In this document: piece after piece, positions 11,250 to 31,594 of the stretch
How positions within the stretch are numbered: the stretch's first letter is position 1
Layout of the letters: every line of letters starts with the position of its first letter
DNA from: an uncultured Pseudomonadota bacterium
GTDB lineage: Bacteria > Pseudomonadota > Gammaproteobacteria > CAJXQU01
DNA: 52,640 nucleotides
Direction of reading: 5' to 3'
Assembly: GCA_913058255.1 (NCBI GenBank)
Contig: CAJXQU010000015.1
Coordinates: 1-52,640 of the forward strand
Position numbers and translations under genes: made by a program
Notes under the pieces: model-generated
What the model was told of the DNA's origin: nothing
Database searches by the model: none
The model's input: the letters and a program-made list of their open reading frames with translations, nothing else

Positions 11250-11293
11250 TATTTATTTAGTCATAGAGGGAACGAAAGTTTAAAAGAATTTAT

Positions 11294-11334
11294 CTCAATA
11301 AACTTATTCTCATCATATTAATAAGCTTATTGAG
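11294..11334. terminator. Long AT-rich inverted repeat between mshL and mshM
   Basis: Two 15-base arms (11294-11308 and 11320-11334) pair with a single mismatch around an 11-base loop. The repeat lies 12 bp after the mshL stop. It lacks a clean T-run, so it may be a weak terminator, a processing or stability hairpin separating mshL from mshM, or a regulator-binding site. Confidence 0.45.
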
Positions 11335-11345
11335 TTCTCAAAAAA

Positions 11346-14190: not shown

Positions 14191-14852
14191 AATTTGACAT
14201 CCTCAAAAACAGGCACACTGCCATTTTCTGTTCTAAAAATAAAATCTATTTTCTCTGAATCTGAAGTGCTCTGAGAAACTGCTGAACTAATATTTTCTTT
14301 CTGACGTAGGTTTAACATCGCAAATGACTTTCCAGCAAAAATCTTTTCATTAGAAAGCTTTTGTAAATAAATAGGTGCTAACTCTGGCTTCAAAGAACTA
14401 CCAGTAATAGCAAGATCTTCACCGCCCCTATTGACAGAAAGCCCCGTTATCCATGCACCTTGCACATGCTGTCTTGACAACGCGACCATAAATTCAGAGA
14501 AACCATCAGTACTGCCATACTTTTGTTCGGTAAGTGATCCAAGCAGCTCTCTTCGTGTCTTCAGCTCTGTTTCTTTACCTTCTATTTCATCTTCTTTGAC
14601 AGCTTTATTTTTATTTTTATTATTTGCAATTGCTAGTGTCGATAGCTGTTCCATCATTGTGTCATTTTTAGCATTTAAGCCTGACACTTCTTCTTCTATG
14701 TGTTGGAGTTCCATCACTTTATTCCAGCTTAAACCTGCAATAACTCCAACAACGATAAAGATAGCAAACAAACAATTTGTGATCGTTAGAGTTTCTTTTT
14801 CAGGATGAAATTGTTCCTGATATAAATTTACTTTTTGTGCAATTAATTTCAT
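14187..14852 (-). CDS. PilN-like MSHA platform protein (second mshI-type gene)
   Basis: PilN/GspL-C-like bitopic inner-membrane protein of 221 residues. The N terminus contains KVNLYQEQF, the short motif by which PilN-type proteins dock to their PilM-type partner. A hydrophobic segment (about 26-44) and a charged coiled coil (about 50-100) follow, then a periplasmic domain (VQGAWITGLSVNRGGEDLAITG). In Vibrio-type msh operons this position is held by the second mshI-type gene. It is joined by 4-bp overlaps to mshI upstream and mshJ downstream. Confidence 0.85.
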   Translation of the reverse strand: MKLIAQKVNLYQEQFHPEKETLTITNCLFAIFIVVGVIAGLSWNKVMELQHIEEEVSGLNAKNDTMMEQLSTLAIANNKNKNKAVKEDEIEGKETELKTRRELLGSLTEQKYGSTDGFSEFMVALSRQHVQGAWITGLSVNRGGEDLAITGSSLKPELAPIYLQKLSNEKIFAGKSFAMLNLRQKENISSAVSQSTSDSEKIDFIFRTENGSVPVFEDVKL

Positions 14853-15870: not shown

Positions 15871-17316
15871 TTAGAGCTTAAAAGGAAGGTTTTTCTTCCC
15901 TATTGGCTCGTGGTTTTTAAAGATTTTATTAACCTCTCTACCTTCATTCTTTAACTCAATATCAAGATCTTCAATACGATCTTTATTTATATTTTCGGAT
16001 GAACGATAGATACCACCATTCTTTTTGACGATTCTAGGTGTGATCATCACGACTGTTTCAGTATTCGTCACTGTGTCTTCTTGATTACGAAATGCATATC
16101 CAAGTAATGGAATATCACTTAGTATAGGAATGCCTTGACGAGCATTGGCAGCATTATTTTTGATCAAACCACCAATAAAAATAGTTTCTCCATCAGCCGC
16201 CAGTAGTTGTGTTGTAACTTCAGTAGTTTGTAATGAGGGGATGCCATCGGTCACCGTCGCATTACTCACTTCAGGATGGATTTGCATCATGATCTTGCCA
16301 CTACGATCAACAAAAGGAGTCACCCGTAAGATGACACCAGAATCTAAAAACTTAATCGTTTCAGTTTGTTGATTACCATTGCCACTCGTCGTTAATTCTT
16401 TGTATCCAATGCGATCACCGATCACAACTTCAGCCTCTTGATGTTCTAGTGCTAAAAGTTTGGGTGATGATAACGTTCGTACTCTGCCCTTGTTACTCAG
16501 CGCACTCAAAGCCAAATTCACATTAGAATTTGTCAACGAAAAGAACAGACCTGCACCCGGACCATCTAAGCCCGACGTACTAAACTCTCCTCCTCCCACA
16601 GAAAACATTCTGGCCCAATCTATTCCATAGGTTTCTGTTCGGTTTAATTTAATCTCTAGAATTTGTGCTTCGATCATGATCTGTGCAGGCTGGCTATCAA
16701 GCTCTTCTAATAAGGACTCAATTTTGATCATGAATTCAGGAATATCTTCGACGACGATTAAACGTCGCTCAGGCAGTGCTGTAATTTTTCCATAACGAGA
16801 AAGGTGATCACTGAGTATGGTTGAAACTACATTGGGATCACTGTATTGAACCTTGAAGGATTTAACCTGCGTCAAACCTCCCACAATCTCTTTTCCGGCA
16901 TCATCACGGGTCACGACGAAATAGGTGTTTCCTGATTTTTCGACAGCATAACCTGCTGCTATCGCAACGGCTTTGATCGCTTCATGCAGGTTTATTTCGT
17001 AAAGGTTAATTGAGACTTGGCCTTGAACACCTTTCGCCAACAGAATATTGACTCTCCCATGTTTGGACATCATTTCAAACACTTCTGCTAAATCAGCATG
17101 GCGGACAGAAATTGTTACTGTTTTGGACAAACTATCTTTCGGAGAAGTCGCCGTCTGAACGTTATGATTTTTTAAGCCTTCTTGATGTTCTGCTTCGGCT
17201 TGTTGTATTGGTAGTGCAAGATAGACGATCAGAAATAAGACGTGATAAAGCCTCTCGTTAAAGAGTTTTGTTTGGTTATTTTGTCTCTTCCATCGAGATA
17301 GAAAAGTTTTTTCCAT
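15871..17316 (-). CDS. Second secretin (PilQ/GspD/MshL family)
   Basis: Outer-membrane secretin of about 481 residues. Its signal peptide is preceded by a long basic n-region and ends near QAEA. The secretin-TonB N1 domain follows (VSINLYEINLHEAIKAVAI), then an N-domain (RRLIVVEDIPEFMIKIESLL) and the secretin barrel with RTLSSPKLLALE, TIFIGGLIKN, IPLLGYAFRN and TETVVMITPRIV. There is no lipobox, unlike MshL. Only one or two periplasmic N-domains are present, shorter than typical GspD. The frame opens at TTG 17331; I use ATG 17316. Either start overlaps the upstream PilP-like gene by about 40-55 bp. Confidence 0.9.
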   Translation of the reverse strand: MEKTFLSRWKRQNNQTKLFNERLYHVLFLIVYLALPIQQAEAEHQEGLKNHNVQTATSPKDSLSKTVTISVRHADLAEVFEMMSKHGRVNILLAKGVQGQVSINLYEINLHEAIKAVAIAAGYAVEKSGNTYFVVTRDDAGKEIVGGLTQVKSFKVQYSDPNVVSTILSDHLSRYGKITALPERRLIVVEDIPEFMIKIESLLEELDSQPAQIMIEAQILEIKLNRTETYGIDWARMFSVGGGEFSTSGLDGPGAGLFFSLTNSNVNLALSALSNKGRVRTLSSPKLLALEHQEAEVVIGDRIGYKELTTSGNGNQQTETIKFLDSGVILRVTPFVDRSGKIMMQIHPEVSNATVTDGIPSLQTTEVTTQLLAADGETIFIGGLIKNNAANARQGIPILSDIPLLGYAFRNQEDTVTNTETVVMITPRIVKKNGGIYRSSENINKDRIEDLDIELKNEGREVNKIFKNHEPIGKKNLPFKL

Positions 17317-17665
17317 TTTTTTCAAAAACAACAGATTGTCCCTTGACCTTGATCAGTCTAAAACCTTCATACTCCATACCAACCTCAATCATATCCCCAC
17401 CGATATTAACGATTGAAATATCATCCGAAAGGATGATGCCTCTTAATTCTGGCTGCCAAAGAAATGACTCCCGTGGCGTTCCTTTCGATGTTGGCGCTTC
17501 TTCCCTTTGCTCACCTACATTCATTGAGGCAGGCTCTGTTGACTGTTGTGTGAGCGGGTTTACAAAAGGATCAGTATGCAAGTCAGGTGCCAGAAAATTC
17601 TCTGCAATGACTTGCTGACCAAAGCTAAAGATAATAAGACTTAAAATAACTCTATTTTTTAGCAT
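17276..17665 (-). CDS. PilP/MshK-like periplasmic protein
   Basis: Small exported protein of 129 residues with a signal peptide cleaved probably after VIA (residue 21). A short disordered part follows (APDLHTDPFVNPLTQQ), then a beta-rich C-terminal domain (PELRGIILSDDISIVNIGGDMI) of the PilP/GspC HR type. DPFVNP resembles the DPTRP region of MshK. GGAG seven bases before ATG 17665 supports the start. It sits between the PilO-like gene and the secretin, the position of pilP in pilMNOPQ, and probably links the inner platform to that secretin. Confidence 0.8.
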   Translation of the reverse strand: MLKNRVILSLIIFSFGQQVIAENFLAPDLHTDPFVNPLTQQSTEPASMNVGEQREEAPTSKGTPRESFLWQPELRGIILSDDISIVNIGGDMIEVGMEYEGFRLIKVKGQSVVFEKNGKNFSISMEETK

Positions 17666-17666
17666 T

Positions 17667-18224
17667 TCACTGCTCCTCTAATGGCTGGATCAAAGCCAGT
17701 GATAAACGCAACTCTCGTTCCTCAGGATTAACACCTGCTTTCATCGAAAATCGTTTCACAAACAATGGCGTTGTCGCATGCTCAAGTGAGTAAACCCACT
17801 TAAATAACTGCCCGTAGGAACCACTCATTTCGATCTGAAAAGGAATCTCTGTATAGGTTTCACCTTGGCTTTCTTTACCCGGCGCGACATTAAGTAACTG
17901 AACTTCATATTGCTTTGCAAAGTTACCCAAGTCTGCGATCACCTTTAATGGCTTTGTACCTTTTAGAACTTCATGCCCGGTTTTTGTTAGCTGCTCGTTC
18001 AAGCTGGTGATTTCACTTTGTAATGAGAGCATTTCTTTTTTCCCAGCTTCAGGATCGCTAGGTAACATTTTTAGAGCCTCATAACGAACTTGCTGTAACT
18101 TATAAGACTTCATTGGCTTCTTAAATAGGCTCGTAAAACCACCCAAAACCAACACAACAGCAATTGCCGCTAATAGTAAAAACATCAGTCTTGGAGTCAG
18201 CGTTTTTGTCAGCTCATCTAACAT
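17667..18224 (-). CDS. PilO-like type IV filament platform protein
   Basis: Bitopic inner-membrane protein of 185 residues. An N-terminal hydrophobic helix (about 14-31) is followed by a coiled-coil stretch (about 45-90) and a ferredoxin-like periplasmic domain with PFQIEMSGSYGQLFKWVYSLE, the conserved PilO-type motif. It lies between the PilN-like and PilP-like genes, overlapping the former by one base. GspM is the T2SS equivalent. Confidence 0.85.
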   Translation of the reverse strand: MLDELTKTLTPRLMFLLLAAIAVVLVLGGFTSLFKKPMKSYKLQQVRYEALKMLPSDPEAGKKEMLSLQSEITSLNEQLTKTGHEVLKGTKPLKVIADLGNFAKQYEVQLLNVAPGKESQGETYTEIPFQIEMSGSYGQLFKWVYSLEHATTPLFVKRFSMKAGVNPEERELRLSLALIQPLEEQ

Positions 18225-18799
18225 TACATAATTTCCATATCAAAACTGACAAGACTATCTGACTTGTTCAGCATCGCCGATTTAAGAACAACCACTTCAT
18301 GGACTTCTGGCTCTGTTAATAAACGTTCGACAAAGGCTGATAATGAGGCGTGATCTAAAGCTTTACCTTTAATTTTTATATTCATTAATTTTTCTTGATC
18401 AGGGTTTTCGTTTCCAAGTGCCGTCGCTTCGTAACTCCACTCCTCCATCCAAACCGTAGGGTTCAAAACGCGATCAAAAATTTGAAATGTCTTACCCGCC
18501 GCGCCGCCTTTTTGTAAAAGCTCAACAAATGCGATTTGCTTCTGCACTATCGCTCGCTCACCTTCTAGCTTTGTAATTTCATCATGTTGCGTTGTTATTG
18601 TTTTTTTCTGTTCTTCCAGACTAGTTATCTGTGCGTTGACCTTGGTCACATTCGCATTTAAAAATATTTTCCCAGCAATAATCAGCGCGATCAACAATGC
18701 ATACAAACAACCAAAACCTATCAACATCTGTTTGGCTTTTTGCACACGCCGATAACTTTCAGGAATAAGATCTATTTCACGCACTGGTTTCACTCCCAC
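18224..18799 (-). CDS. PilN-like type IV filament platform protein
   Basis: Bitopic inner-membrane protein of 191 residues. The cytoplasmic REIDLIPESYR at residues 6-16 matches the docking peptide of PilN for PilM. A hydrophobic segment (about 25-43), coiled coil (about 50-90) and periplasmic alpha/beta domain follow. The gene starts 23 bp inside the end of the PilM-like gene and touches the PilO-like gene with a one-base overlap, so translation of the set is tightly coupled. Confidence 0.87.
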   Translation of the reverse strand: MGVKPVREIDLIPESYRRVQKAKQMLIGFGCLYALLIALIIAGKIFLNANVTKVNAQITSLEEQKKTITTQHDEITKLEGERAIVQKQIAFVELLQKGGAAGKTFQIFDRVLNPTVWMEEWSYEATALGNENPDQEKLMNIKIKGKALDHASLSAFVERLLTEPEVHEVVVLKSAMLNKSDSLVSFDMEIM

Positions 18800-19868
18800 T
18801 TAACGACAAACCAGTAGCCACCGCAATGCCCAAATGCCCAGATTGTTCATTAACTTCTTCGGCTTGATGAGAGGTATTCAAGCCATAAAATGGTCGTGTC
18901 GTTTTAACTGGAAGTCCTGTCATTTCAGCGAGAAGTTTATCAAAACTAGGCCAAGCCGCTACACTTCCAAAAATATAAGCTTGATACACATTTCGCCCAC
19001 GTGTTCGCGAAGCCACATACAGCATCAAACGTTTTATTTCAGAAGAAAATTCTAACAACGAAGGTTTCAATATATCCGTCAGTGAAGCCGTAATTCCTGG
19101 TTCAAATAAATCATCACCAGCCAAAATATTGTTAACCACCTGAACCCCGTGACGCTCTAATAAATTTTCGGCTTCATCCTGAGAAACCTCCAAAGCGTCT
19201 GACACTTGCTTTAGTGCTGAGTTTAAGCCAAATGATAATGAACGATCGAGTAATAGGCGGCGTCCCCATAAGACGGTTGCGTACGATCGGTCAATGCCAA
19301 AATTAATGGCTAAAACAACCTTGTCGTTTTGTGTGGGGTGCATGGCGCTGATCAAACGATTGATTGCCACCGGCCCAATCTCTAGTCGAACAACATTCAA
19401 ACCTGCCTTGCTTAAATAGTCTAAGAATTCGATAACCGACTTTTGCTCGGCAACCGCCACGAGCGCGGTTCGATCAACCTGATCTTTATGTTCAGGTCTA
19501 ATGTGCAAGTAATCTATAACGGACTTGTTAATGCTGTCACCAAAACGTTCTTTTATCGCTCCAATAACAACCTCGTCAACATCTTGTCCGGGGGTATGCT
19601 TATATTCTAATGAAATAAACTGAACCTTCTCTGGCGGCATTGCAACAACAGCTCGCCGACCTTTGAAAGCACCTTGTTTACGCGCTTCGCGGAGTAGCTT
19701 CTTTAGTTCAGCAGATGACGCATAAAGCTCGTCTTTAGCGATGGGATAATCTATAGACACAGCCGAACGAACACACGGACCACTTTTAGTAAAATCTGCC
19801 TGTACTATTTTTAATGCTTCCGTCCCAAAGTCTAGTCCAATGGGGCCAGTACGGAGAGTCCCTAACAT
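18777..19868 (-). CDS. PilM-like actin-fold platform ATPase
   Basis: Cytoplasmic PilM-type protein of 363 residues. Visible motifs are GPIGLDFGTEALKIVQ (phosphate-1 region), the VVAMPPEKVQFISLEY segment, VVLAINFGIDRSYATVLWG (phosphate-2 region) and the adenosine-region IFGSVAAWPSFDKLL. The actin-like nucleotide site therefore appears intact, unlike the neighbouring MshI. It is the first gene of a pilM-N-O-P-Q-type set, preceded by a 213-bp gap after the last pseudopilin gene. That gap should contain a promoter, but I cannot point to convincing boxes. Confidence 0.9.
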   Translation of the reverse strand: MLGTLRTGPIGLDFGTEALKIVQADFTKSGPCVRSAVSIDYPIAKDELYASSAELKKLLREARKQGAFKGRRAVVAMPPEKVQFISLEYKHTPGQDVDEVVIGAIKERFGDSINKSVIDYLHIRPEHKDQVDRTALVAVAEQKSVIEFLDYLSKAGLNVVRLEIGPVAINRLISAMHPTQNDKVVLAINFGIDRSYATVLWGRRLLLDRSLSFGLNSALKQVSDALEVSQDEAENLLERHGVQVVNNILAGDDLFEPGITASLTDILKPSLLEFSSEIKRLMLYVASRTRGRNVYQAYIFGSVAAWPSFDKLLAEMTGLPVKTTRPFYGLNTSHQAEEVNEQSGHLGIAVATGLSLSGSETSA

Positions 19869-20081: not shown

Positions 20082-21017
20082 TTATGGGCAAGTATGCCCA
20101 CACTCACATAATGTGCTTATGCGCAATATGGGGTGTTTGGTGCTATCGCTATGATTTTTATTAATAAACTTAAGGTTATTTGTGACTCCATTCTCTCCCC
20201 ATAATTCAAAGCCATAGTTGACATAGGCTCCATCAAGCCAACCGGTGACAAGATCTTTAACATCCCAACTATTCCATCCAATCACACCCTCGTCAACACT
20301 CGTCACCGCCGCAGGAGAGAAATCAAGATCACTGTTAGTCCAAACAACACCAGCCTTTCTTTCATTATAGGTTGCTTCGTCCTCCACCCATTCTTTCTTC
20401 AAACGTAAAATGCTCACATCAACATCGCTATTACTACTATCAGGAGCACCCGATAAATGTAATTCAAGGCTGACTGAAACAAGCGCGTCAATATCCACCG
20501 TCATACTCGAAAAATCGAATTCTAAAAGCCCAATACGATCAGGCAAAAAAGCACTATAATTGACATGTAATGTCTCTTCAGTACTATAATTCGTTGACTT
20601 ATCGGTTGATCGTATATGAGTCCCTTTCGTTGGATTGAGCGTTTGCTCAATCGTCTCAAACATCCTCACCTCACGAGAAAACTGCTTAACACCGCCCTCC
20701 TGCTCAACAGTAATATTAAGCATCACAGGCGAGCCATGATCAGGGCTCACCGAAGCCGTATAATTGCGACCATTAAAACTCCCCGTTGGAGCCACAGAAT
20801 ATCCCGCACAATCGTCATCTTGTAACAATGCTTGGCCTGCCATCACGAGTCCAGCCTCAGCAACATACCGAGCTTGCTCAAAATCATTGATCGCTGCCGT
20901 TTGTTTTAGAGCAACAACACTTTTTTGATTTAACATTAACGCAATTGAGCCAATGACCGCTAAGATCAAAACTACCGGTAGCAGAATAAAGCCTTGCCTA
21001 TCCCTTCGCATGCTCAT
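20082..21017 (-). CDS. GspK/PilX-like pseudopilin with C-terminal DNRLRE-type domain
   Basis: Minor pseudopilin of 311 residues. The prepilin leader MSMRRDRQG precedes FILLPVVLILAVIGSIALML; position +5 is Pro, not the usual Glu, as expected for tip-located GspK/PilX proteins. Residues about 40-125 form the pilin-like part. From about 130 to 300 the sequence looks like a DNRLRE-type beta-sandwich (GLLEFDFSSM, VSLELHLSG, WVEDEATYNER, WDVKDLVTGWLDG, NYGFELWGENG), a module found on surface and adhesion proteins. It ends in CECGHTCP. It closes the G-H-I-J-K series and overlaps the J-like gene by 4 bp. The domain call is by motif recognition only. Confidence 0.78.
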   Translation of the reverse strand: MSMRRDRQGFILLPVVLILAVIGSIALMLNQKSVVALKQTAAINDFEQARYVAEAGLVMAGQALLQDDDCAGYSVAPTGSFNGRNYTASVSPDHGSPVMLNITVEQEGGVKQFSREVRMFETIEQTLNPTKGTHIRSTDKSTNYSTEETLHVNYSAFLPDRIGLLEFDFSSMTVDIDALVSVSLELHLSGAPDSSNSDVDVSILRLKKEWVEDEATYNERKAGVVWTNSDLDFSPAAVTSVDEGVIGWNSWDVKDLVTGWLDGAYVNYGFELWGENGVTNNLKFINKNHSDSTKHPILRISTLCECGHTCP

Positions 21018-21760
21018 AATCGCCCACCCAGCCGAATGCTCGTGTTCAAGCTTGTGGTTGTTACACCATCATCTGCGGTCAACACCAACCCGACCTGCAC
21101 AATGGCATAACGTCCGGTTTGTGTGGGGGTTGTCACTGTGAAGCTTGTGATCCGCTCAGAAATGATGGTTACCAGCTTATCTTCATTACCGACAGTCCCA
21201 TTACCTGAAATATCAAATGACAGTTTCTCATCTTGTTTAAAGATGCCATTTTTCCAGTCTAAATGAAGTTTTTCAGGCTTGTCTTCATCTACCACCCCAT
21301 CTTCATCATCATCGTCTTTATTGCCTTCATCGACAGAGCCATCGCCATCATCATCGACGCCTAAAACACCTGATGCGCCATCACCATTCATATCGCCCAA
21401 ACCATCTTCATCAACCTGGCCATCTTCATCATCGTCGGCATCGGCAAAACCATTTTTATCCATATCTCTTTCGGGATCGAGACGAAAATCATAGTGAATT
21501 TTGGTCAGCGTATTTTTCTTCATTGTCATCCAGCTAGCTCGACTAACCACCCGCACGATCCGACGCATGGCAAAAGCAGCTTCGCGCTCAAGTTCCGTTT
21601 TTTGCTCAACCACCTGCTGAGTATTAGAAACATTACCGATCACATTGCCTAAGGAGAGCATCAACAGCCCAGAAATAGCCACCACAACTAAAATCTCGAC
21701 CAAGGTGAAGCCTCTTTCCGAGCGCTTGATAAGCATTGATTGATAGTTTGGGCTACGCAT
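21014..21760 (-). CDS. GspJ/PilW-like pseudopilin with acidic calcium-loop insert
   Basis: Minor pseudopilin of about 248 residues with cleavage motif ERG-FTLVEILVVVAISG, where Glu +5 is present. Roughly residues 85-160 form a striking Asp-rich insert with repeated DxDxDGxxD-type loops (DMDKNGFADADDDEDG, DMNGDGASG, DDDGDGSVDEG, DDDDEDGVVDED) resembling thrombospondin-type-3, dockerin or EF-hand calcium loops. A beta-rich C-terminal part follows. I use ATG 21760, which overlaps the I-like stop by 8 bp; ATG 21736 would give a shorter leader. The codons of the insert produce a simple CATC-rich stretch on the plus strand. Confidence 0.82.
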   Translation of the reverse strand: MRSPNYQSMLIKRSERGFTLVEILVVVAISGLLMLSLGNVIGNVSNTQQVVEQKTELEREAAFAMRRIVRVVSRASWMTMKKNTLTKIHYDFRLDPERDMDKNGFADADDDEDGQVDEDGLGDMNGDGASGVLGVDDDGDGSVDEGNKDDDDEDGVVDEDKPEKLHLDWKNGIFKQDEKLSFDISGNGTVGNEDKLVTIISERITSFTVTTPTQTGRYAIVQVGLVLTADDGVTTTSLNTSIRLGGRL

Positions 21761-22175
21761 CGGGTAACACCAATGTCTCAAAGCTTAGCGGACTACCTTG
21801 ATATTCCGCCCGAACCCAAATCACCTCATCAACCCCCGTATAAGGATCATCATCGGCATCGGCGTTATCAACATCGTAACGTGACAAATAAACCGCTAAA
21901 GGATCCGTACCACTGACATCTGAATAAGAACTCAGCGTGGAATAAGCTCCAGCGACGGTGGCTGCAGCATCCAGCGTGGCAAAATCATCTGCCAGCACCT
22001 CTTCCATCTTGCCAAATAGCAGATAATGTTGGCGCAAAGAATGACTACCGATTTCAGAACTTTTGATGCTGGTTTGCAACGCTTCCATCGCCGGAACAAG
22101 TGTAATACCCAGTAGCACAATGGCGATCAAGACCTCGATCAAAGAAAAACCTGAAGATGAACCTATCTTTCTCAT
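21753..22175 (-). CDS. GspI/PilV/MshD-like minor pseudopilin
   Basis: Prepilin-like protein of 140 residues with leader MRKIGSSSG and FSLIEVLIAIVLLGITLVPA, including Glu +5. A short globular part follows, with acidic DNADADDDPYTG near residues 103-114. Length and position between the H-like and J-like genes fit GspI; MshD is the alternative name. Four-base overlap with the H-like gene. Confidence 0.83.
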   Translation of the reverse strand: MRKIGSSSGFSLIEVLIAIVLLGITLVPAMEALQTSIKSSEIGSHSLRQHYLLFGKMEEVLADDFATLDAAATVAGAYSTLSSYSDVSGTDPLAVYLSRYDVDNADADDDPYTGVDEVIWVRAEYQGSPLSFETLVLPDA

Positions 22176-22738
22176 GGCGTCAAGACCCGCCCAAAACCAG
22201 GCTCTAAAACCACCTGCTGGATCAGATCCCCATAGCTCATATCAATGTTTGCTGACTCTAAAATAAAGGAGTTTCCTGACACGGAGTCACGCCAAAATGG
22301 CGTTCCTTCCTCATCAAACAAAACATAAGACACACTCGAAGCAAGCGTATAATAGTGAAACAAGGGAATAACCGAAGAAAAGCCCACCCCCTTTGTAGAC
22401 GAATTGTCCGACAAAAGAAAATCGTATGGTTGCTTAGAATGTGGATGATAATCGACTAACAAACCAGTCAACGGATTAGCGCCCGTCCCGGCTTTAAAGG
22501 CATAAAGCCGCGTCGTAACCGTATCAAGATGCACACCATGCACCTGCCCCGTACGAATCGACTCGTCTCGAGCAAATCTCAAGGCCGTAGCAACCTCATT
22601 GCTTGCAGAATCTAAACGGGCCGGATTGGAGCTAGATAACTCAGGTAGAACAACACTGGCTATGATGCTTAGAATAAACAGCACAATCAGTGTTTCTATT
22701 AGGGTGAAGCCACCTTGATCTTGCATTTCACACGACAA
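22172..22738 (-). CDS. GspH/FimT/MshC-like minor pseudopilin
   Basis: Prepilin-like protein of 188 residues. The leader ends in QGG and is followed by FTLIETLIVLFILSIIASVV with Glu +5. The stretch EVATALRFARDESIRTGQ is the hallmark of GspH/FimT proteins. The C-terminal part is beta-rich. It lies 20 bp after the major pilin gene and overlaps the I-like gene by 4 bp. Confidence 0.86.
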   Translation of the reverse strand: MSCEMQDQGGFTLIETLIVLFILSIIASVVLPELSSSNPARLDSASNEVATALRFARDESIRTGQVHGVHLDTVTTRLYAFKAGTGANPLTGLLVDYHPHSKQPYDFLLSDNSSTKGVGFSSVIPLFHYYTLASSVSYVLFDEEGTPFWRDSVSGNSFILESANIDMSYGDLIQQVVLEPGFGRVLTP

Positions 22739-22758: not shown

Positions 22759-23331
22759 CTAGTAAGAATCGTAAAAAGGCGTGCCTGAGTGATCATCAGC
22801 AATGAACTTTCCTGTCAACTCATCATAGAGCCAACCACCGGAACTGTCAGTCGTTGCTGAAACCATCGCTAAGTTTCCACTTGTTGTTGGAAAAACAATG
22901 GTATTTACTTCTGTAATCGCGTTTTTAGGTATGCCAGCAACACCCGTTGTTGAAACAGTAAGATATGGGCCATATTTAAAAGTCGCACTTTTCATAGAAC
23001 AAGCTGCGCCTGTGATGCTGGTAAACAGTGTCAATTGTTCCGCGAATGCCAAAGCGGTTCTTGCAAGACCTTCACCTGGGCCTGACGCACAGCCACCACC
23101 ACCTGTTGCAAGCTTAACGCCCGGGTAGTCCCCATGGTCTTGCTTATAAAGAGCAATGGACGATCGCATGGCGGAGAGATTCGTTTTTAAAGACTCAACC
23201 CTCGCATCATCCGTCGCACCACTCAATTGAGGAATAACCACTGCAGCCAAAATTCCCAAAATAACAACCACGATGAGTAACTCTATCAACGTGAAACCTT
23301 TTTGCAGATCCCTTTTTATCGATAACTTCAT
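22759..23331 (-). CDS. Major pilin/pseudopilin (GspG/MshA-like)
   Basis: Type IV pilin-like protein of 190 residues with leader MKLSIKRDLQKG and FTLIELLIVVVILGILAAVV, including Glu +5. Helix continuation (LKTNLSAMRSSIALYKQDHGDYPG) resembles GspG and MshA. Two cysteines (GGGGCASG and GAACSMKS) could form a disulfide, more MshA-like, and the typical GspG C-terminal DPWGNPY motif is not seen. ATG 23331 has AAGGTG six bases upstream, so I prefer it to GTG 23340. As the first pilin gene after a divergent intergenic region it is probably the most highly expressed. Whether it serves one or both assembly platforms is unknown. Confidence 0.87.
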   Translation of the reverse strand: MKLSIKRDLQKGFTLIELLIVVVILGILAAVVIPQLSGATDDARVESLKTNLSAMRSSIALYKQDHGDYPGVKLATGGGGCASGPGEGLARTALAFAEQLTLFTSITGAACSMKSATFKYGPYLTVSTTGVAGIPKNAITEVNTIVFPTTSGNLAMVSATTDSSGGWLYDELTGKFIADDHSGTPFYDSY

Positions 23332-23700
23332 AAATAACACCTTTTATGTAACATTAATATAATTCGTTACTTGACATTATCGACTCCTTCAGGAATTACT
23401 TTAAGTAATACATAACTATTACATAAACGAAGTATCACAACCCTTTCTATTATATTAATAGGCCACACAAGCTAGCTTAGAACCGACCCTTATAAAAACC
23501 TCAAGCTCCATAGAAAGCGTCAATAGCTAGACAGGGCGCGCTTACCCCGTATTTTCGCCCCATCGCACAATGTAATAATATGAGAATTCCACTAACAACT
23601 TCAACTTTTTACTGGTATGGTTAAGCTGTGATTAAATATTCCTCATAATAATAAAAAACATAAATCAAGATGTTCTAACTCATCTGTATAGGGACTAAAC
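23332..23700. promoter_or_regulatory. Divergent intergenic region between major pilin and VPLPA-CTERM genes
   Basis: A 369-bp non-coding gap that must hold both divergent promoters. The clearest structure is a perfect palindrome ATTACTT-T-AAGTAAT at 23395-23409, about 64 bp upstream of the major pilin start, a candidate operator. The VPLPA-CTERM gene has an AGGGA ribosome-binding site at 23690. No unambiguous -35/-10 pair or sigma-54 site could be assigned by eye. Confidence 0.4.
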
Positions 23701-24408
23701 ATGATAAAATCAATCTCCATCACCTCCATCACCTCCATCACCTCCGTAATCTTGTCACTCTTTTTGCTATCAACCAATGCGTCAGCCACGGTCATCTATG
23801 CGCAGGACCTTGACCCTTCGCTTACTGTAGGTAGATTTGTCAGCGATTTCGGAACAACCACTCGGAGAGCCAACAAATTCACTCTGTCCGGTGCTGCGAC
23901 CCAGTCGATAAACACTATCAGCTGGCTGGGAACGTATGGCTCGCTTGTCACCTCTCCAGGCGCTGATGATTTCACACTCCGAGTATTTGCTGATAACGGC
24001 AGCGGAGCCCCAGAGCTGTCAGCCTCGGTATTAGACATCGACGTTGGCAATGCCGTTAACCGTGCAGGTACTGGGGGGTTTTCTATATTCGGCAGAGATA
24101 TATATACCTATCAAGCCAGTTTAGGAACGGACATTACCCTTTCATCCGGCGTTGATTACTGGTTAGCTGTCATTAATGATTTCAGTGTCATTAGTACTTC
24201 AGATAGTTGGAGTTGGGCAGTCTCTTCATTTACTGGAAGCAACACATTAGTCCAAGGCACTGATGGTGGCACCTGGGTAGTACCGACTACCGATACAGCC
24301 CAATACGAATTATCACACGTATCAAGCGTCCCTATCCCAGCCGCATTATGGCTGATGATCAGTGGCCTTGCTGGCTTAGCTACTTTCAAAAGAAAACAAC
24401 ACGCTTAA
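23701..24408 (+). CDS. VPLPA-CTERM-type exported protein (exosortase substrate candidate)
   Basis: Exported protein of 235 residues. The signal peptide is probably cleaved after NASA (residue 29). A beta-rich domain over about 30-205 contains DDFTLRVFAD and SGVDYWLAVINDF, typical of the secreted beta-sandwich proteins that carry such anchors. The C terminus VPIPAALWLMISGLAGLATF followed by KRK (210-235) is the tripartite VPLPA-CTERM sorting signal: motif, hydrophobic helix, basic end. Such signals are handled by exosortases in exopolysaccharide-producing Gram-negative bacteria; no exosortase gene is in the window. It is the only plus-strand gene between 5.1 and 31.6 kb. Confidence 0.82.
   Translation: MIKSISITSITSITSVILSLFLLSTNASATVIYAQDLDPSLTVGRFVSDFGTTTRRANKFTLSGAATQSINTISWLGTYGSLVTSPGADDFTLRVFADNGSGAPELSASVLDIDVGNAVNRAGTGGFSIFGRDIYTYQASLGTDITLSSGVDYWLAVINDFSVISTSDSWSWAVSSFTGSNTLVQGTDGGTWVVPTTDTAQYELSHVSSVPIPAALWLMISGLAGLATFKRKQHA
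23719..23745 (+). repeat. Three perfect 9-bp tandem repeats in a signal peptide
   Basis: Three identical copies of ATCACCTCC encode repeated Ile-Thr-Ser in the signal peptide of the VPLPA-CTERM protein, with a partial copy (ATCTCC) just before. The unit is a multiple of three, so copy changes would alter signal-peptide length without shifting the frame. Confidence 0.9.
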
Positions 24409-24494: not shown

Positions 24495-25619
24495 CTAGTT
24501 CATCGTGCTCGATAGCTTAAAGATCGGTAGAATAAGTGCGCTGACGATGAGTGCGACGAAAACTCCCATTCCTAACAACATTGCTGGCTCGATAATTTTC
24601 GATAACATTGAGAGCTTCTTAGCCAATTCTTTTTGATAATAATCAGCGATTCGGCCCGTTACCAGTGATAATTTGCCTGATTCTTCACCCGTCTGGATCA
24701 TTTGCTTGATCAGAGTTGGGACGAATTTAGTTTCTCTAAAACCTAGACCTAAACCTTTACCTTCACTGACATTACTCACCAACTTTTCAACGAAGTTTTG
24801 GAATGATTGGTTGTGGGTTGCATCTTTGCAGATTGTCAGAGCATCGATTAATGACACGCCATTTTCTAAGGACAAGCTGAGTAGCCGCATCATGTGTGTC
24901 AAATAGAGCCGTGTGAATAGAGCCCCAGCTACCGGTGCAGTTAGTAGGGTGTAATCAAACCAACGTCGAAAGTTTGGCTGACTAAAAAGCATTTTAAGAT
25001 AGAAGCCCAACATGACAACCACCCCCAGCAATGCCCACCAGTAGTTGATCATAAAATCACTCGCACTCATCAAGACCTGCGTAATCATTGGCAATTGTGT
25101 GCCCGATGAAGAGAACAAAACAGTGAATTTTGGAAAGATCGAGGTCAAGACGAACACAACAACAAGTATAGAGAACCCTGTCAAGATAATCGGGTAAGTA
25201 AAGGCTGAAACCATCATCGCTTTTAGCTCTTCACGTTTTTCTTCCATTTCTAGTAGGTGGCCTAAAACGGTGACGAGATACCCGCCCTGCTCTCCTGCAT
25301 CGATCAGTGTGATGTAGGTTTGTGAAAATAATTTTTTATGGTTCCCAAGTGCTTGGGCAAAAGTTTGCCCTTTGGTAACCCTTTCATGCAGATCAAGGAT
25401 CATGGCTTTCAGCTCAGCATGATCGGATTGGGTCTCAAGAATTTCTAGGCTGCCATGCAGTGTGTTACCTGTCTCGATCAATAAAGCCAGTTGTTCCGTA
25501 AAGAATTTTCGGTGATTCGCCGTTAGCTTTCCATCAGAGAATAATTTAAATTTACTCGCTGACGGATCAGATTTTGTATCTGATTTTTCGGTTTTTGTGT
25601 CTGTAAAATCTATGGCCAT
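24495..25619 (-). CDS. Second GspF/PilC-family inner-membrane platform protein
   Basis: Polytopic platform protein of 374 residues. It has two GspF domains (about 40-165 and 240-365) with FFTEQLALLIETGNTL and HMMRLLSLSLENGVSL as paired motifs, and hydrophobic segments near 142-162, 193-212 and 345-368. The N-terminal 25 residues are hydrophilic (TDTKTEKSDTKSD) and lack the usual YKGRD opening of PilC/MshG proteins. It follows the STAS-GspE ATPase gene by 23 bp and precedes the G-H-I-J-K genes, the standard T2SS gene order E-F-G-H-I-J-K. Confidence 0.9.
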   Translation of the reverse strand: MAIDFTDTKTEKSDTKSDPSASKFKLFSDGKLTANHRKFFTEQLALLIETGNTLHGSLEILETQSDHAELKAMILDLHERVTKGQTFAQALGNHKKLFSQTYITLIDAGEQGGYLVTVLGHLLEMEEKREELKAMMVSAFTYPIILTGFSILVVVFVLTSIFPKFTVLFSSSGTQLPMITQVLMSASDFMINYWWALLGVVVMLGFYLKMLFSQPNFRRWFDYTLLTAPVAGALFTRLYLTHMMRLLSLSLENGVSLIDALTICKDATHNQSFQNFVEKLVSNVSEGKGLGLGFRETKFVPTLIKQMIQTGEESGKLSLVTGRIADYYQKELAKKLSMLSKIIEPAMLLGMGVFVALIVSALILPIFKLSSTMN

Positions 25620-25642: not shown

Positions 25643-27682
25643 TTAATCTGCTGAAATTATCCGTTTAACTTCTTCGATCGTCGTGTCACCTTTATGGACA
25701 CGCTCCATGCCGTCATCAAACAAGGTGACAACACCAGCGTTCTCTATATATTCACTCAGGTTATCTCGGCTCGGGTTTTTCATCATCAGGTTTTGTAAGG
25801 CTGAGTCTGATTTGACGATCTCGTGTACCGCCATTCGTCCTTTGTAACCAGAGTCATAACAGGTTGTGCAACCGCGTCCTTTTGATAAGTGAACATGTTC
25901 GTCTTCGCTCCAACCAAATTCTTTTTTCAATTCGGGTGGTGCGACAAAGGTCGTTTTACAATCTGGACAGACGGTTCTAACCAGACGTTGAGCAACAGAA
26001 CCCACTAAAGCCGAGGACAATAAGTACGGTTCAACGCCCATGTCTAATAAACGTGTCACGGCTCCGATCGCATCGGTAGTATGCAAAGTAGATAAAACCA
26101 AATGTCCTGTTAAGGCAGCTTGAATGGCAATTTCTGCCGTTTCGTGGTCACGGATCTCACCGACCATTATAATGTCAGGATCTTGTCTCAAGACATGCTT
26201 CAATAACTTAGCAAAAGTTAAACCAACCTTATCCTTCACTTGGTTTTGGTTGATGATATCAAGCTGATATTCGACTGGATCTTCAATCGTAACAATACTT
26301 TTTTCAGTATCATTAAGGTGCTCGATGGCAGAGTATAGCGTGGTTGTTTTACCACTACCCGTTGGGCCCGTAACCAAGATAAGACCATGACTACGCGTCA
26401 GTAAATGGCTGAAAATTTCAGTGTTGTGCTCGCTCATGCCAAGCTTATCTATGGGTAAAATACTACGATTTTTATCCAACACACGAAGTACGATTTTTTC
26501 ACCATTTACGCCGGGTAAGGAGCTAAAACGCAGATCAACAACATTGCCCCGTGTGCTAACTTGAATACGCCCATCTTGCGGTAGACGGCGTTCAGAAATA
26601 TCCATGTTGGCCATGACTTTGAGTCGAGAAACCAAAGCTGGATGCATTTCCAGAGCAGCTGTCATCACTTCGTATAAGATGCCATCAACACGTAACCTGA
26701 TCCGGGTTTTATTGCGTGAAGGCTCTATGTGAATATCACTGGCCCCATCACGAATCGCACGTTGAATAACCGCATTGACTAGGTTGATGACAGGGCTGCC
26801 ATTGGCTATCTCATCAATACTCGCAAAATCACTATTGAGCTCTTGATCGATCAGCTCAAAGTCTTCTTCTAGATCGCCAACATAGGCATCAATCTCAACG
26901 GATCCTTCGTAGGCTTCGTTGATGCAATGTTCAATTTCTTCTCCACGCGCGAGTACTGGCTGAACAATCAAACCGGTGGTACGTTCAACCTCATCGAAAC
27001 TCGGTATACTTTGCGGATCAGATGTGGCAAGTGTCAGTACGCCACGAATATTAAACAAGGGTAGTACTTTTAAGCGCGAGGCTAACGCATGATCAATCGT
27101 TTTTGTAATAGCCAGATCATAAACACCGGCTCGTAAATACGTGTGTGGAACGTCAAGCTGTTGGCTCAGAACTTTCAGCATTTCTGTTTCAGAAACCCAC
27201 TCACGTTCGACCATGATCTCACCCATACGCTTACCAGTTTCAGACTGTAAACGGACAGCTTCATCAACATGCTCTTCAGAGACGAGCCCTGCTCCGATAA
27301 GCAAATCGCCAAGTCGCAAGTTTTGCAAACCGGTCGTCGACCCATGAGCTAGAATCTGATCATTCTGCGTCGTATTTAAGACGTCAACATAGTCATTAAC
27401 TCCCGTGATACGCAGCACATCTTGATTGATGCTGTTGACATTGGTTAGTGTTAATCCTCCACCTCGACGCGCTAACTCATCTTGAGAGTCAAGTAGTAAT
27501 TCGAGCACATAACTATTAAGGGTAGGAACATTCGTTAAATCGATGATCAACAAATTTTCGCGTTGGGCAAGACAGCCCGCAACGGCTTCTCTAACAGGTT
27601 CTAAAGAAGCTAGATCAGAAAAACCTTCACTGGGGAGCAAGCGAGTAGCAATGCCAACTCGATCGGTGAGTACCTTTTGCAT
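25643..27682 (-). CDS. STAS-MshEN-GspE fusion: secretion ATPase with regulatory N terminus
   Basis: Secretion ATPase of 679 residues with an unusual N terminus. Residues about 1-107 look like a STAS domain (LLIIDLTNVPTLNSYVLELL, RRGGGLTLTNVN, LRITGVNDYVDVL), with Ser 57 near the position phosphorylated in SpoIIAA-type proteins. An MshEN domain follows (about 119-260) with the c-di-GMP-type repeats RLGDLLI...RLQ (123-146) and RMGEIMV...SQQ (152-175). The ATPase has Walker A GPTGSGKTT (439-447), EDPVEYQL, IIMVGEIRD (504-512), STLHTTD and tetracysteine 572/575/605/608. It lies 3 bp after the GGDEF-EAL gene, so signalling and motor genes are one operon. The STAS call is from pattern recognition; the rest is firm. 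Confidence 0.92.
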   Translation of the reverse strand: MQKVLTDRVGIATRLLPSEGFSDLASLEPVREAVAGCLAQRENLLIIDLTNVPTLNSYVLELLLDSQDELARRGGGLTLTNVNSINQDVLRITGVNDYVDVLNTTQNDQILAHGSTTGLQNLRLGDLLIGAGLVSEEHVDEAVRLQSETGKRMGEIMVEREWVSETEMLKVLSQQLDVPHTYLRAGVYDLAITKTIDHALASRLKVLPLFNIRGVLTLATSDPQSIPSFDEVERTTGLIVQPVLARGEEIEHCINEAYEGSVEIDAYVGDLEEDFELIDQELNSDFASIDEIANGSPVINLVNAVIQRAIRDGASDIHIEPSRNKTRIRLRVDGILYEVMTAALEMHPALVSRLKVMANMDISERRLPQDGRIQVSTRGNVVDLRFSSLPGVNGEKIVLRVLDKNRSILPIDKLGMSEHNTEIFSHLLTRSHGLILVTGPTGSGKTTTLYSAIEHLNDTEKSIVTIEDPVEYQLDIINQNQVKDKVGLTFAKLLKHVLRQDPDIIMVGEIRDHETAEIAIQAALTGHLVLSTLHTTDAIGAVTRLLDMGVEPYLLSSALVGSVAQRLVRTVCPDCKTTFVAPPELKKEFGWSEDEHVHLSKGRGCTTCYDSGYKGRMAVHEIVKSDSALQNLMMKNPSRDNLSEYIENAGVVTLFDDGMERVHKGDTTIEEVKRIISAD

Positions 27683-27685
27683 GAT

Positions 27686-29854
27686 CTAGGCCATTAATAC
27701 CTGAGTCTTTCCAGTGATTTTTTCCATAAATGGGCTGGGTTTATCGATACCATACCCCTGCGCGTAATCGATACCAATTTCTGAGACCACATCAACGATG
27801 GCATCGTTTTCGACAAACTCCGCAATCGTTTTTAAACCCATTGCTTGTGCAATATGATGAATAGAGTTAACCATGATTCGATCAACGGTATCATCAACAA
27901 TGTTTTGTATGAAAATTCCATCGAGTTTTAAATAATCGACAGGTAAGTTTTTTAAATAACCAAATGAACTCATACCGCTGCCGAAATCATCTAGGGCAAA
28001 TCTACAACCAATATTTTTTAAAGTTTCAATAAATTTCAGCGCACTAGCTAGATCACTCACCGCTGATGTTTCAGTGATTTCTAAACAAATTCTTTCAGGC
28101 TCAATTTCACTATCAAGTATGGTTGAAACAACATATTTAAGAAAACCTTCATCCGTGAGTGACTGTCCAGAAATATTAACTGAAACAGAAATATCATCAG
28201 TCAAATGGCTTTCTTTGACATCACTCAATACACTGAGTGTTTCTGCCAATACCCAACGATCAATCAAAGGCATCAAGTTATAACGTTCTGCCGCAGGAAT
28301 GAAGCGCCCTGGAGCAACCATATCACCATTTTCTTCACGTAACCGAACTAGAATTTCATAATGACTTGCTTCACCATATGGATCTGATAAAGGAGTGATT
28401 GCTTGTCCAAAAATTTCAAACAGATCTTCTTTAAGAGAGTTCTTTATTCGACTCGCCCAATACATCTGATCACGGTGTTCAGCCATTTCCGTATCCGTTG
28501 GCTGATAGATTTTAACGCCATTTTTTCCTCTCTCTTTGACGATGGAAGAGGCAACTATCGCAGCACTTAAAACATCAATCGCAACTTCCATGTCCGGATC
28601 AATTTCAACGACTCCAAAACTACCTGAAATTTCAAAAATTTGATCATTTGATATAAATGAAATTTCTTGGAGTGCTCGCCGTAAACCTTCCGCGATTCCT
28701 TCGGCAACCTGTCCTGACGTATCTTCAAGAAGAATCCCAAATTCATCACCACCTAAACGTGACAAGGTAATATCCTTTCCAAGCTTAGATCGAAGTAAAG
28801 CGGTCACTTGTCTAAGTAAACGATCACCTTCGGAATGCCCCCATGTATCATTAATTACTTGAAAACGGTCAAGGTCAAAGTATATTAGAGAATGATAAGC
28901 ACCATCATCTCTTGTAGCGAGCTCATCAAGTTTGCTTTCAAAACTGCTCCTATTCAAAAGACCGGTAATAGGATCACGTTTTGACTGAAATATTTTTGTT
29001 GTTTCTCGTGCCAAAAGTTCGCACAACCGTCTATCAGTATTAGTATAATGCTCACGGTCCATCTTATTTGCAAAGACAACAATACCGGCAATAGAGTTGT
29101 CTATATTCATCACGCTAGAAACAATTAATTTATAAGGTATTAGAGGTTCATGATGTGTATTTTCTGAATAAGAGTCACGATTAACCACAATAGATTTGTG
29201 AGCGGATTCATGAAAAATAACAGGATTTTTACTGAGTCTTTCCAGTGTTTCTTCCACTTCAGGAAGATCTTCATCTAATGAGTGTCGCAGACGAATATCT
29301 TCTCCAGGGATCAACAATGCGACGAGATCCACTGACAAAAACTCCATGCTCATATTCAACAGTTCATTATATGATTTTATCTCATCATACTGATGACTAT
29401 TTACCCAAATATCATCAAGTCCATAAACCATATTTATTTCTTCATAGCGAGATGCCAGCTCGTTGGAGAGTCCGCTTATGGAAGTATGATTGGTATAATC
29501 AACCGCAATATAATGTGCAATATCAACAAGGATAGGCTTAAGCAGCTCTTCGATTGTAGTCGTTAATGTTTTGCTTGCCTCTGTTAACGTTAGTTTCAAC
29601 CAAAAAGGTTGATCTTCTGCGCCAAGGAAAAGCGCGGCAGCCCAAACAACCTCACCTTTTTCAGATTGCATTTTTTGTGCTTTATAACACAAGCTATCCC
29701 AGTCAATTTCTCGACTAACACCAATCTCGACTTCAACGCTTTCACCAAGTTCATTTCCTTTTTGGTCAAATAGTCCAAGCTTGCATTCTTGCCCTGTTAA
29801 ATGTTCGAATAGGCTTACATATCTATCTAGATCAAAGTCGATTAACTTATCCAT
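27686..29854 (-). CDS. GGDEF-EAL c-di-GMP turnover protein
   Basis: Cytoplasmic protein of about 722 residues. The N-terminal part (about 1-300) looks like GAF-type sensing (VMNIDNSIAGIVVFANKMDREHYT). The GGDEF domain has an intact active site RLGGDEFGIL and DPITGLLNR, but no RxxD inhibitory site five residues before it. The EAL domain has EIL in place of EAL, yet keeps VSVNISGQSL, EITET, DDFGSG, KLDG, AEFVE and YAQGYGIDKP, so phosphodiesterase activity is plausible. No membrane helix is seen. The frame opens at GTG 29869; ATG 29854, two bases after the response regulator stop, is preferred. It probably sets the c-di-GMP level sensed by the two MshEN ATPases. Confidence 0.92.
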   Translation of the reverse strand: MDKLIDFDLDRYVSLFEHLTGQECKLGLFDQKGNELGESVEVEIGVSREIDWDSLCYKAQKMQSEKGEVVWAAALFLGAEDQPFWLKLTLTEASKTLTTTIEELLKPILVDIAHYIAVDYTNHTSISGLSNELASRYEEINMVYGLDDIWVNSHQYDEIKSYNELLNMSMEFLSVDLVALLIPGEDIRLRHSLDEDLPEVEETLERLSKNPVIFHESAHKSIVVNRDSYSENTHHEPLIPYKLIVSSVMNIDNSIAGIVVFANKMDREHYTNTDRRLCELLARETTKIFQSKRDPITGLLNRSSFESKLDELATRDDGAYHSLIYFDLDRFQVINDTWGHSEGDRLLRQVTALLRSKLGKDITLSRLGGDEFGILLEDTSGQVAEGIAEGLRRALQEISFISNDQIFEISGSFGVVEIDPDMEVAIDVLSAAIVASSIVKERGKNGVKIYQPTDTEMAEHRDQMYWASRIKNSLKEDLFEIFGQAITPLSDPYGEASHYEILVRLREENGDMVAPGRFIPAAERYNLMPLIDRWVLAETLSVLSDVKESHLTDDISVSVNISGQSLTDEGFLKYVVSTILDSEIEPERICLEITETSAVSDLASALKFIETLKNIGCRFALDDFGSGMSSFGYLKNLPVDYLKLDGIFIQNIVDDTVDRIMVNSIHHIAQAMGLKTIAEFVENDAIVDVVSEIGIDYAQGYGIDKPSPFMEKITGKTQVLMA

Positions 29855-29856
29855 AT

Positions 29857-30243
29857 TTAGGCTAAACACTCCAATTCTTCGAAATATTCATTAAGTCTAA
29901 TGACAAGCTTTCTTGGGCTGAGTGGCTTTTCAAAGAACTCAACATTCTCTAAGCTACCAGCTTGTTCTCTAAAATCTCGCTCAGTTCTTGATGTCATAAT
30001 TAAGATTAATGTCTCGCTTTCAGGAAAGTCATTTCTGAACTGTTGTGAAAATTCCAGACCACTCATTTTTGGCATCTGAATATCAGATACAATAATATCT
30101 GGCATAACCTCATTGACTTTATCCAATGCCATCAAGCCATTATTTGCCGTTTCAACAGAGTATCCCGACTTAACCAAAAAATGTTTTATCACGGATAAAA
30201 CATGTGGCTCGTCATCAATTAATAATACTTTTTTAGTTTTCAT
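29857..30243 (-). CDS. Stand-alone response regulator receiver protein
   Basis: CheY-like single receiver domain of 128 residues without an output domain. It shows LLIDDEP (acidic pocket), the phospho-acceptor Asp 54 in DIIVSDIQMPKMSG, the MTSRT switch region and FFEKPLS with the conserved lysine. It lies 19 bp after the histidine kinase gene and directly before the GGDEF-EAL gene. The natural reading is kinase to receiver, then by protein contact to the GGDEF-EAL protein or the STAS-ATPase; that step is inference. Confidence 0.93.
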   Translation of the reverse strand: MKTKKVLLIDDEPHVLSVIKHFLVKSGYSVETANNGLMALDKVNEVMPDIIVSDIQMPKMSGLEFSQQFRNDFPESETLILIMTSRTERDFREQAGSLENVEFFEKPLSPRKLVIRLNEYFEELECLA

Positions 30244-30262
30244 TTTTAGTTTTCCTCCTCAC

Positions 30263-31594
30263 TCAAACCGCCTCTTTAAGCAGGGTCGATGTTTTTCCAA
30301 TTTCAAGAGTAAAGACTGTCCCCTTCCCTTTCTCACTCTCTACAATCAGACTCCCACTGTGTAATCCTATAATTTCATTGGCTAAAGATAAGCCCAATCC
30401 ATGACCGTTTCGATTAGTCACGTCATCATCATCTGAGCGATAGAATTTCTCAAAAATCTTTTTCTGATCTTCTTCTAAAATACCAATTCCGGTATCACTG
30501 ATCCTTATTATTATCGAATCATTATTTTCTTCGGCTTCCATTGTCACGAGCCCGTCAGGCTTATTGTATTTAATAGCATTCGATAAAATATTATTTAAAG
30601 CGACACGAAATAAATCCTTATCGATAGATAAATGACTTAATGTTTGCGGCAGGTTCAGATTAAACTTAATGTTATTTTCATCACCAGCACGTTGCATTTT
30701 TTCAAAAACATCAATAAGAAAGTCACGGAAGCGTATTCTTTTACGATCGATACTGACGTTTCCTACTTCAAAGCGAGTAATATTCAATAGATCGGTGATC
30801 ATATTAGAGACACGATCAATCTCATCGTTAATCACATTAATACTGGTAATTCTCTGTTGTTCATCATCACCAATATCAAGCATCAATTCGCTATGCATTT
30901 TAATAATATTCAATGGTGACTTCAGTTCATGCGATACATGCGCAATAAAATCATCACGTGATTTTTTTGCCATTGATTCCGCAGTCACATCACGGAATAA
31001 AATCAAGATCCCGATGGTAACTTCAGGTTTAGATGGTAATGAAATCGGTGACACAGTGACCGCTAGTGTTTTCTCTTTCTGATCTTCAGGTGTAAATTCC
31101 ACCGTTTCAGTTCTGCGTAGACGCGTTACGTTACCTTCATACCGCACCAATAAACTTAAAACCTGTTGATTCGTACACCAGTCGTGAGCCTGCTTGCCGA
31201 CTACCTCACTCGTTTCAACACCAATCAACGATTGCAATTTTTGATTAGCAAACTTCGCGGTACCCGCTTGATCAAGAATGACGATGCCCTCTGGGAAAAC
31301 TTCCAGTACTGAACGGAGTTTTTTATGCTGATACACGATCGACTTATTTTCAGTCTCAGCATCTTGACGTAAATTTTTCGCCGTCTTAAGCTTTTCTCGA
31401 ATATATTTCACCAATGAAGACACAGATTCGGTCAGGTTTACTGACTTTGAACTCTGTTCTTCCGGCAATAGAGAAGCGATCATTCTCTTAGCTTTCTTCA
31501 ATTGACGAGACTGTACAAAACTTGCAGACAAGCCAATGAAAGCTACAATCACCAATATAATGACGAGCGGATCGGTAAGTTGTTGCAGTATCAT
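30263..31594 (-). CDS. Membrane-bound PAS sensor histidine kinase
   Basis: Kinase of 443 residues. One N-terminal membrane helix (LVIILVIVAFIGLSASFV, residues 9-26) is followed by a coiled coil (about 50-95), a PAS domain (about 100-210; VLEVFPEGIVILDQAG), HisKA with FIAHVSHELKSPLN (phospho-His near residue 224) and HATPase with NNILSNAIKYN, DTGIGI, FEKFYRSDD and GHGLGLSLA. All catalytic boxes are present. With only one predicted helix and no periplasmic loop it probably senses a cytoplasmic or membrane signal through the PAS domain. It heads the HK-REC-GGDEF/EAL-STAS-ATPase-GspF series. Confidence 0.93.
   Translation of the reverse strand: MILQQLTDPLVIILVIVAFIGLSASFVQSRQLKKAKRMIASLLPEEQSSKSVNLTESVSSLVKYIREKLKTAKNLRQDAETENKSIVYQHKKLRSVLEVFPEGIVILDQAGTAKFANQKLQSLIGVETSEVVGKQAHDWCTNQQVLSLLVRYEGNVTRLRRTETVEFTPEDQKEKTLAVTVSPISLPSKPEVTIGILILFRDVTAESMAKKSRDDFIAHVSHELKSPLNIIKMHSELMLDIGDDEQQRITSINVINDEIDRVSNMITDLLNITRFEVGNVSIDRKRIRFRDFLIDVFEKMQRAGDENNIKFNLNLPQTLSHLSIDKDLFRVALNNILSNAIKYNKPDGLVTMEAEENNDSIIIRISDTGIGILEEDQKKIFEKFYRSDDDDVTNRNGHGLGLSLANEIIGLHSGSLIVESEKGKGTVFTLEIGKTSTLLKEAV

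Follow-up and report, generated by a model that had tools for sequence, protein, structure and literature searches.

A STAS-fused type IV filament motor with a conserved histidine kinase, receiver, and EAL neighborhood: a candidate for an undescribed mode of pilus control

What tells a pilus motor when to run is an open question. MshE, the extension ATPase of the MSHA pilus in Vibrio cholerae, is gated by c-di-GMP, but its ATPase rate scarcely alters in vitro, and partners have been suspected (PMC5013675). The 52,640-nucleotide stretch of DNA analysed here, which we call the window, raises the question anew, as it encodes a filament motor with a STAS domain directly downstream of a set of signalling genes. 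The genes and domains of this locus are listed below in the order of the minus strand.

30263..31594, minus strand: histidine kinase (HK), with which the unit begins (Pfam HisKA 52 bits, HATPase_c 90, PAS_4 33)
29857..30243, minus strand: stand-alone CheY-like receiver (Pfam Response_reg 86 bits)
27686..29869, minus strand: GGDEF-EAL protein (Pfam GGDEF 110 bits, EAL 202 bits)
25643..27682, minus strand: STAS-MshEN-T2SSE filament motor ATPase (Pfam T2SSE 453 bits; own clade, 100/100)
27368..27616, minus strand: STAS domain of the ATPase, aa 23-105 (PF01740 34.7 bits; PDB profile search; Foldseek)
27158..27316, minus strand: predicted double motif for c-di-GMP binding within the ATPase, aa 123-175 (NF053729 59 bits, cut-off 38)
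24495..25619, minus strand: GspF/PilC-type inner-membrane platform (T2SSF 163 bits; TIGR02120 304 bits against a cut-off of 424)
22759..23340, minus strand: major pilin candidate (N_methyl 38 bits; GspG model 60 bits against a cut-off of 88.85)
22172..22738, minus strand: GspH-like minor pilin (Pfam GspH, N_methyl; TIGR01708 49 bits, below cut-off)
21753..22175, minus strand: GspI-like minor pilin (N_methyl; position and likeness to relatives)
21014..21781, minus strand: GspJ-like minor pilin (prepilin motif; position and likeness to relatives)
20082..21017, minus strand: GspK-like minor pilin with C-terminal CBM96/DNRLRE, putative adhesive tip (CBM96 52.5 bits, cut-off 26; DNRLRE module 83.6 bits, cut-off 34)
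18777..19868, minus strand: PilM-like (TIGR01175 55 bits, below its cut-off of 133)
18224..18799, minus strand: PilN-like (position; similar proteins in relatives)
17667..18224, minus strand: PilO-like (position; similar proteins in relatives)
17276..17665, minus strand: PilP-like (position; similar proteins in relatives)
15871..17331, minus strand: secretin (PilQ 201, GspD 190, MshL 154 bits; each below its own cut-off)

The preliminary description placed the four genes from kinase to ATPase head-to-tail with gaps of about 20 bp or less, and this is how the minus-strand open reading frames fall: 19 bp separate the HK from the receiver, the receiver and GGDEF-EAL genes overlap (-13 bp), and 3 bp separate the latter from the ATPase. 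The limits then given to the unit, 25643-31594, are too narrow, as the GspF-like platform, the pilins, PilM-N-O-P, and the secretin extend it to about 15871. A gene for a VPLPA-CTERM sorting-signal protein (TIGR03370, above cut-off) lies on the opposite strand at 23701-24408 (+) and interrupts the operon between the platform and major pilin genes. Promoter and terminator scans returned matches no more frequent than in shuffled sequence. At the start of the contig, positions 1-50 of the window hold a Nextera transposon mosaic end (agatgtgtataagagacag). It is an artefact of assembly or adapters, and the first open reading frame (2-841) begins within it.

Is the N-terminus of the ATPase truly a STAS domain, as had been proposed? 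Pfam places STAS (PF01740) at residues 23-105 (E 1.6e-8, 34.7 bits, above the curated cut-off of 22.6), and a profile built from the N-termini of the whole family matches the solved STAS proteins TM1081, TM1442, and SpoIIAA (E 3e-7 to 1e-6). The structural comparison points the same way at low confidence. Because the alignment used for prediction was shallow, comprising three closely related sequences, the ATPase model has a mean pLDDT of 48 (25-63 in the STAS part); its secondary structure there is compatible with a STAS fold, and Foldseek aligns RsfB, RsbV, and RsbS to the N-terminus with probabilities of 0.69-0.99 but E values above 0.05. A chance match is ruled out by the profile score, the PDB profile search, and the existence of 17 orthologous copies.

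Past the STAS domain, Pfam recognizes MshEN at residues 176-261 and T2SSE at residues 294-674. The MshE-type c-di-GMP motif at residues 123-175 scores 59 bits against a cut-off of 38 (NCBIfam NF053729), which bears out the assignment of a c-di-GMP-type MshEN domain as a sequence prediction. Such receptors are defined by two 24-residue motifs with a 5-residue spacer; the window's ATPase keeps the spacer intact and matches 9/11 and 6/11 of the strict positions, motif II deviating from consensus in the window's genus (G10 to E). Most STAS motors retain the motif in a looser form than MshE, and motif I is degraded in genome G168. Foldseek, on the same low-confidence model, matches MshE with c-di-GMP (5htl) to the domain that follows STAS. 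The T2SS GspE of the same genome, unlike the STAS motor, lacks the motif.

The architecture is not an oddity of the window. A single-protein scan of named genomes gave matches only in two same-genus MAGs. A class-wide search of 369 genomes recovered 16 proteins in 15 genomes that align across the STAS region; for the remaining GspE/MshE relatives in that listing, the alignments run mainly from residue ~118 on, without a full-length STAS match. A phylum search added one further STAS-ATPase in a MAG of another class (G493), for a total of 17 in 16 genomes and 13 families, 12 of them gammaproteobacterial and the last that of the other-class MAG. This MAG, 80% complete, is the one carrier among 48 genomes of its class, and its STAS motor could possibly stem from transfer or mis-binning. 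A match in a Legionella adelaidensis plasmid that seemed to reach the STAS part was rejected as an ordinary MshE beside mshL, the match spilling into the preceding gene. In a tree of the 15 of 17 STAS motors of sufficient length, the motor cores form one clade (support 100/100) apart from the PilB, T2SS GspE, and MshE of the window's genome. The STAS fusion therefore most simply arose once, and multiple independent fusions are ruled out by the tree. Curated models likewise leave the ATPase outside the named motors: it scores 582.5 bits with the T2SS GspE model TIGR02533 (equivalog cut-off 630) and 563.2 bits with the T4aP PilB model TIGR02538 (equivalog cut-off 676), and it does not group with MSHA MshE, since the STAS motors separate at 100/100 and the genome's own MshE falls elsewhere.

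The signalling genes travel with the motor. The trio of HK, receiver, and GGDEF/EAL protein immediately precedes the STAS motor in 15 of the 17 loci, with gaps mostly below 50 bp or overlapping, and a GspF-like gene follows the motor in 14 of the 15 loci where the contig continues, the ORF caller having returned none in G264b. That this gene order is kept across families indicates a functional tie between signalling genes and motor much more strongly than the window alone could. In sequence terms, the trio, the STAS-MshEN-T2SSE motor, the platform, the pilins, PilM-N-O-P, and the secretin are demonstrably encoded in conserved order.

The HK has one N-terminal transmembrane stretch, as read from its sequence, followed by PAS, HisKA, and HATPase_c domains, and its H-box is kept in all relatives examined. 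In the receiver, the acidic pocket, phospho-Asp, and Lys are conserved across relatives, and Pfam finds no DNA-binding output domain. The third protein carries two sensor-like domains ahead of GGDEF and EAL, the second of them GAF-like (residues 135-295; VIA-align on a low-confidence model). Its domains are as first described, though only one of its two catalytic motifs is conserved. The EAL motifs ExLxR, NxS, ExTE, DDFG, KxD, E, and Q are present in 14 of 14 tabulated copies (NxC once), and likewise in G493, whereas the GGDEF motif is intact in 4 of 15 copies (the window, two genus relatives, and G127) and degenerate in the other 11. An EAL site intact throughout beside a mostly degraded GGDEF marks the conserved enzyme as a predicted phosphodiesterase, and local c-di-GMP removal is, as far as motifs can tell, the conserved activity of the family; the motif table rules out diguanylate cyclase in that role, while cyclase activity of the window's own protein is possible.

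The occurrence of the GGDEF/EAL sensor part largely follows that of the STAS motor. A profile of this part matches in 19 of the 369 class genomes, 14 of which carry a STAS motor; of the five non-carriers, two show HK-receiver-GGDEF/EAL running up to the edge of a contig, and the other three contain stand-alone paralogues alone. Stand-alone GGDEF/EAL paralogues away from filament genes occur at L109:7786-10008, L110:7085-9307, L113:8488-10773, and L114:9471-11738. In G038 the match falls on a 682-aa protein (L033:17766-19814, minus strand) encoded some 6 kb upstream of the motor gene, with the sensor part N-terminal and a histidine kinase elsewhere in the protein, possibly a domain swap.

Two loci break the pattern: G038 has the HK and receiver with no adjacent GGDEF/EAL gene, and G012 has none of the three. 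These exceptions suggest some role of STAS independent of the trio, and that of G012 bears on the possibility that STAS is a structural add-on that carries no signal, docking the motor to the inner-membrane complex on the PilM/PilN side or aiding hexamer assembly, with the trio controlling transcription or global c-di-GMP. Conservation within STAS is highest at residues of the fold (G10, D48, L60, L63, and G75), and in T2SS and T4P the N-terminal domain of the motor touches the PilM equivalent (PMC11656802), as this explanation would have it. It is hard pressed, however, to explain why 15 of 17 loci pair the trio with a STAS motor if the two are not linked, and a receiver that has no DNA-binding output domain fits transcriptional control poorly. 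We consider a purely structural role unlikely, if worth keeping in mind.

If STAS does carry a signal, it need not be phosphorylation. The preliminary description proposed that the motor could receive a phospho-signal together with c-di-GMP, and implied Ser57 as a SpoIIAA-type site. The STAS domain and c-di-GMP motif of that proposal hold, and alignment does place Ser57 at the position of SpoIIAA Ser58; the phospho-input is the conjectural part. In its fullest form the idea is a partner-switching phospho-switch, in which Ser57 would be cycled by an RsbW/HsbR-type kinase and a PP2C phosphatase encoded elsewhere in the genome, and the motor would integrate a serine-phospho signal with c-di-GMP. 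Partner-switching systems that pair STAS with GGDEF are known (PMC8457831), Ser57 is present in 15 of 17 STAS motors, the window's genome encodes a 606-aa protein that fuses SpoIIE with HATPase_c_2 (G000:C17), and strong matches to RsbW-like kinases occur in several relatives. Yet the serine is replaced by Gly in G185 and by Asn in G012 and ranks only 13th in conservation among STAS columns, and the residue before it is usually Asn, as against Asp in SpoIIAA. The enzymes are just as patchy: G127, G146, and G191 all keep Ser57 and have no strong match to RsbW-type kinases or SpoIIE-type phosphatases, and neither enzyme is encoded within the conserved operon, whose kinase is a histidine kinase. 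Serine phosphorylation of STAS is thus possible from the sequences and not indicated as a common mechanism, and we regard the full partner switch as improbable. Docking of the receiver or the EAL protein on STAS is the reading we prefer.

On that docking model, the HK would sense envelope or cell state and phosphorylate the receiver, which, having no output domain, would act by protein contact with the GAF-EAL phosphodiesterase, the motor, or both. The EAL protein would set the c-di-GMP level locally, next to the motor; with c-di-GMP high on MshEN the filament could extend, as happens with Vibrio MshE, and hydrolysis next to the motor would halt extension. STAS would be the docking site that keeps the EAL protein or receiver on the motor and so couples signal and effector locally, and Ser57 phosphorylation may tune that contact, although the evidence does not require it. 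Counting against this model are G012 and G038, where STAS occurs without the full trio, the degraded motif I of G168, the motif II deviation in the window's genus, and the low confidence of the structure model. We put at about even the chance that these genes form the regulatory front end of a type IV filament system of its own kind, with local c-di-GMP and docking on STAS gating the motor. Somewhat more tentatively, we propose an undescribed type IV filament subtype, defined by the STAS-MshEN motor and HK-receiver-EAL set, that would simultaneously read c-di-GMP through MshEN and, through STAS, a signal carried by a protein, be it contact with the receiver or phosphorylation of Ser57. The recurrence of trio and STAS motor in distant bacteria does look like an undescribed on/off control for a pilus. 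If true, a named subtype would be added to the unassigned type IV filaments, and a STAS domain would be seen to act on a secretion-type motor. Since the likely partners of the motor are encoded beside it and conserved with it, the question of what tells such a motor to run could be put to four purified proteins.

We found no description of STAS with MshEN, GspE, pilus motors, or EAL in the open-access papers searched, which covered few subscription papers and no preprints; within that literature, the claim that a STAS-GspE/MshE fusion is absent from characterised systems stands. The closest systems, MshE, FimX-PilB, and STAS-cyclase partner switching, each share one part and none has the whole set. 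MshE also places an MshEN c-di-GMP motif before a T2SSE motor and works with separate PilM/N/O/P-like proteins and a secretin, but it lacks STAS, its counterpart in the window's genome lies outside the STAS-motor clade, and no dedicated HK-receiver-EAL operon is described for it. FimX (REC-PAS-GGDEF-EAL) acts on PilB directly or via PilZ (PMC11656802), and in the FimX-PilZ-PilB system (PMC11656802, PMC8389850), too, a GGDEF-EAL protein whose GGDEF is degenerate works together with receiver and sensor domains and acts on the N-terminal part of the motor, as is proposed for the STAS system. The single FimX-type chain is not what the window encodes, however: its receiver is a separate gene, apparently phosphorylatable, the GGDEF-EAL protein has only GGDEF and EAL by Pfam plus the GAF-like part, the EAL site is intact, the motor itself has STAS and a c-di-GMP motif, and the operon has no PilZ gene. 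The STAS proteins HsbA and BgrV control GGDEF enzymes, and in HsbA-HsbD, BgrV-BgrR, and SiaC-SiaD a STAS or STAS-like domain is tied to a GGDEF enzyme (PMC8457831), but there STAS is free and accompanied by a serine kinase and PP2C phosphatase, whereas the window's STAS is fused to a motor in an operon that has neither. Finally, the generic type IV filaments of Denise et al. 2019 (PMC6668835) comprise an ATPase, platform, pilin, and secretin matching no named type; the STAS system may itself fall in this set, from which it differs as a recurrent subtype with a marker architecture and trio.

What filament the motor might build is suggested by its minor pilins. GspK-like pilins with CBM96/DNRLRE modules are found in the window, G127, G359, G038, G185, G168, G012, and G146; that of G264b has LamG and a disaggregatase-type repeat, and that of G191 has no such module. 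T2SS GspK homologues sit at the filament tip, and sugar-binding modules on their counterparts here make an adhesive, sugar-binding pilus the likely product. A contrary reading takes the operon to serve mere co-expression: the filament would be a secretion device of T2SS type, and the signalling genes would act on other targets. The pilins do match GspG and GspH models best, though weakly, and the closest models include GspF and GspE. Nonetheless, none of motor, platform, major pilin, PilM, and secretin reaches any curated T2SS cut-off, nor any for T4aP or MSHA (NCBIfam), the genome has a separate T2SS whose GspE lacks the c-di-GMP motif of the STAS motor, and the modules of the GspK-like proteins are compatible with adhesion; we judge a secretion device very improbable. 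By locus, the CBM96/DNRLRE GspK-like pilins outside the window lie in L069, L070, L075, L067, L033, L034, and L074, and GspK-like pilins with LamG domains in G168 reach 1491 aa. Besides its T2SS, the window's genome encodes PilB as well as two MshE-like motors. An MSHA-like cluster (MshI to MshG) at 6049-15811 (minus strand) comes straight after the secretin gene. It lacks nearby pilin genes of its own and might share pilins with the STAS system.
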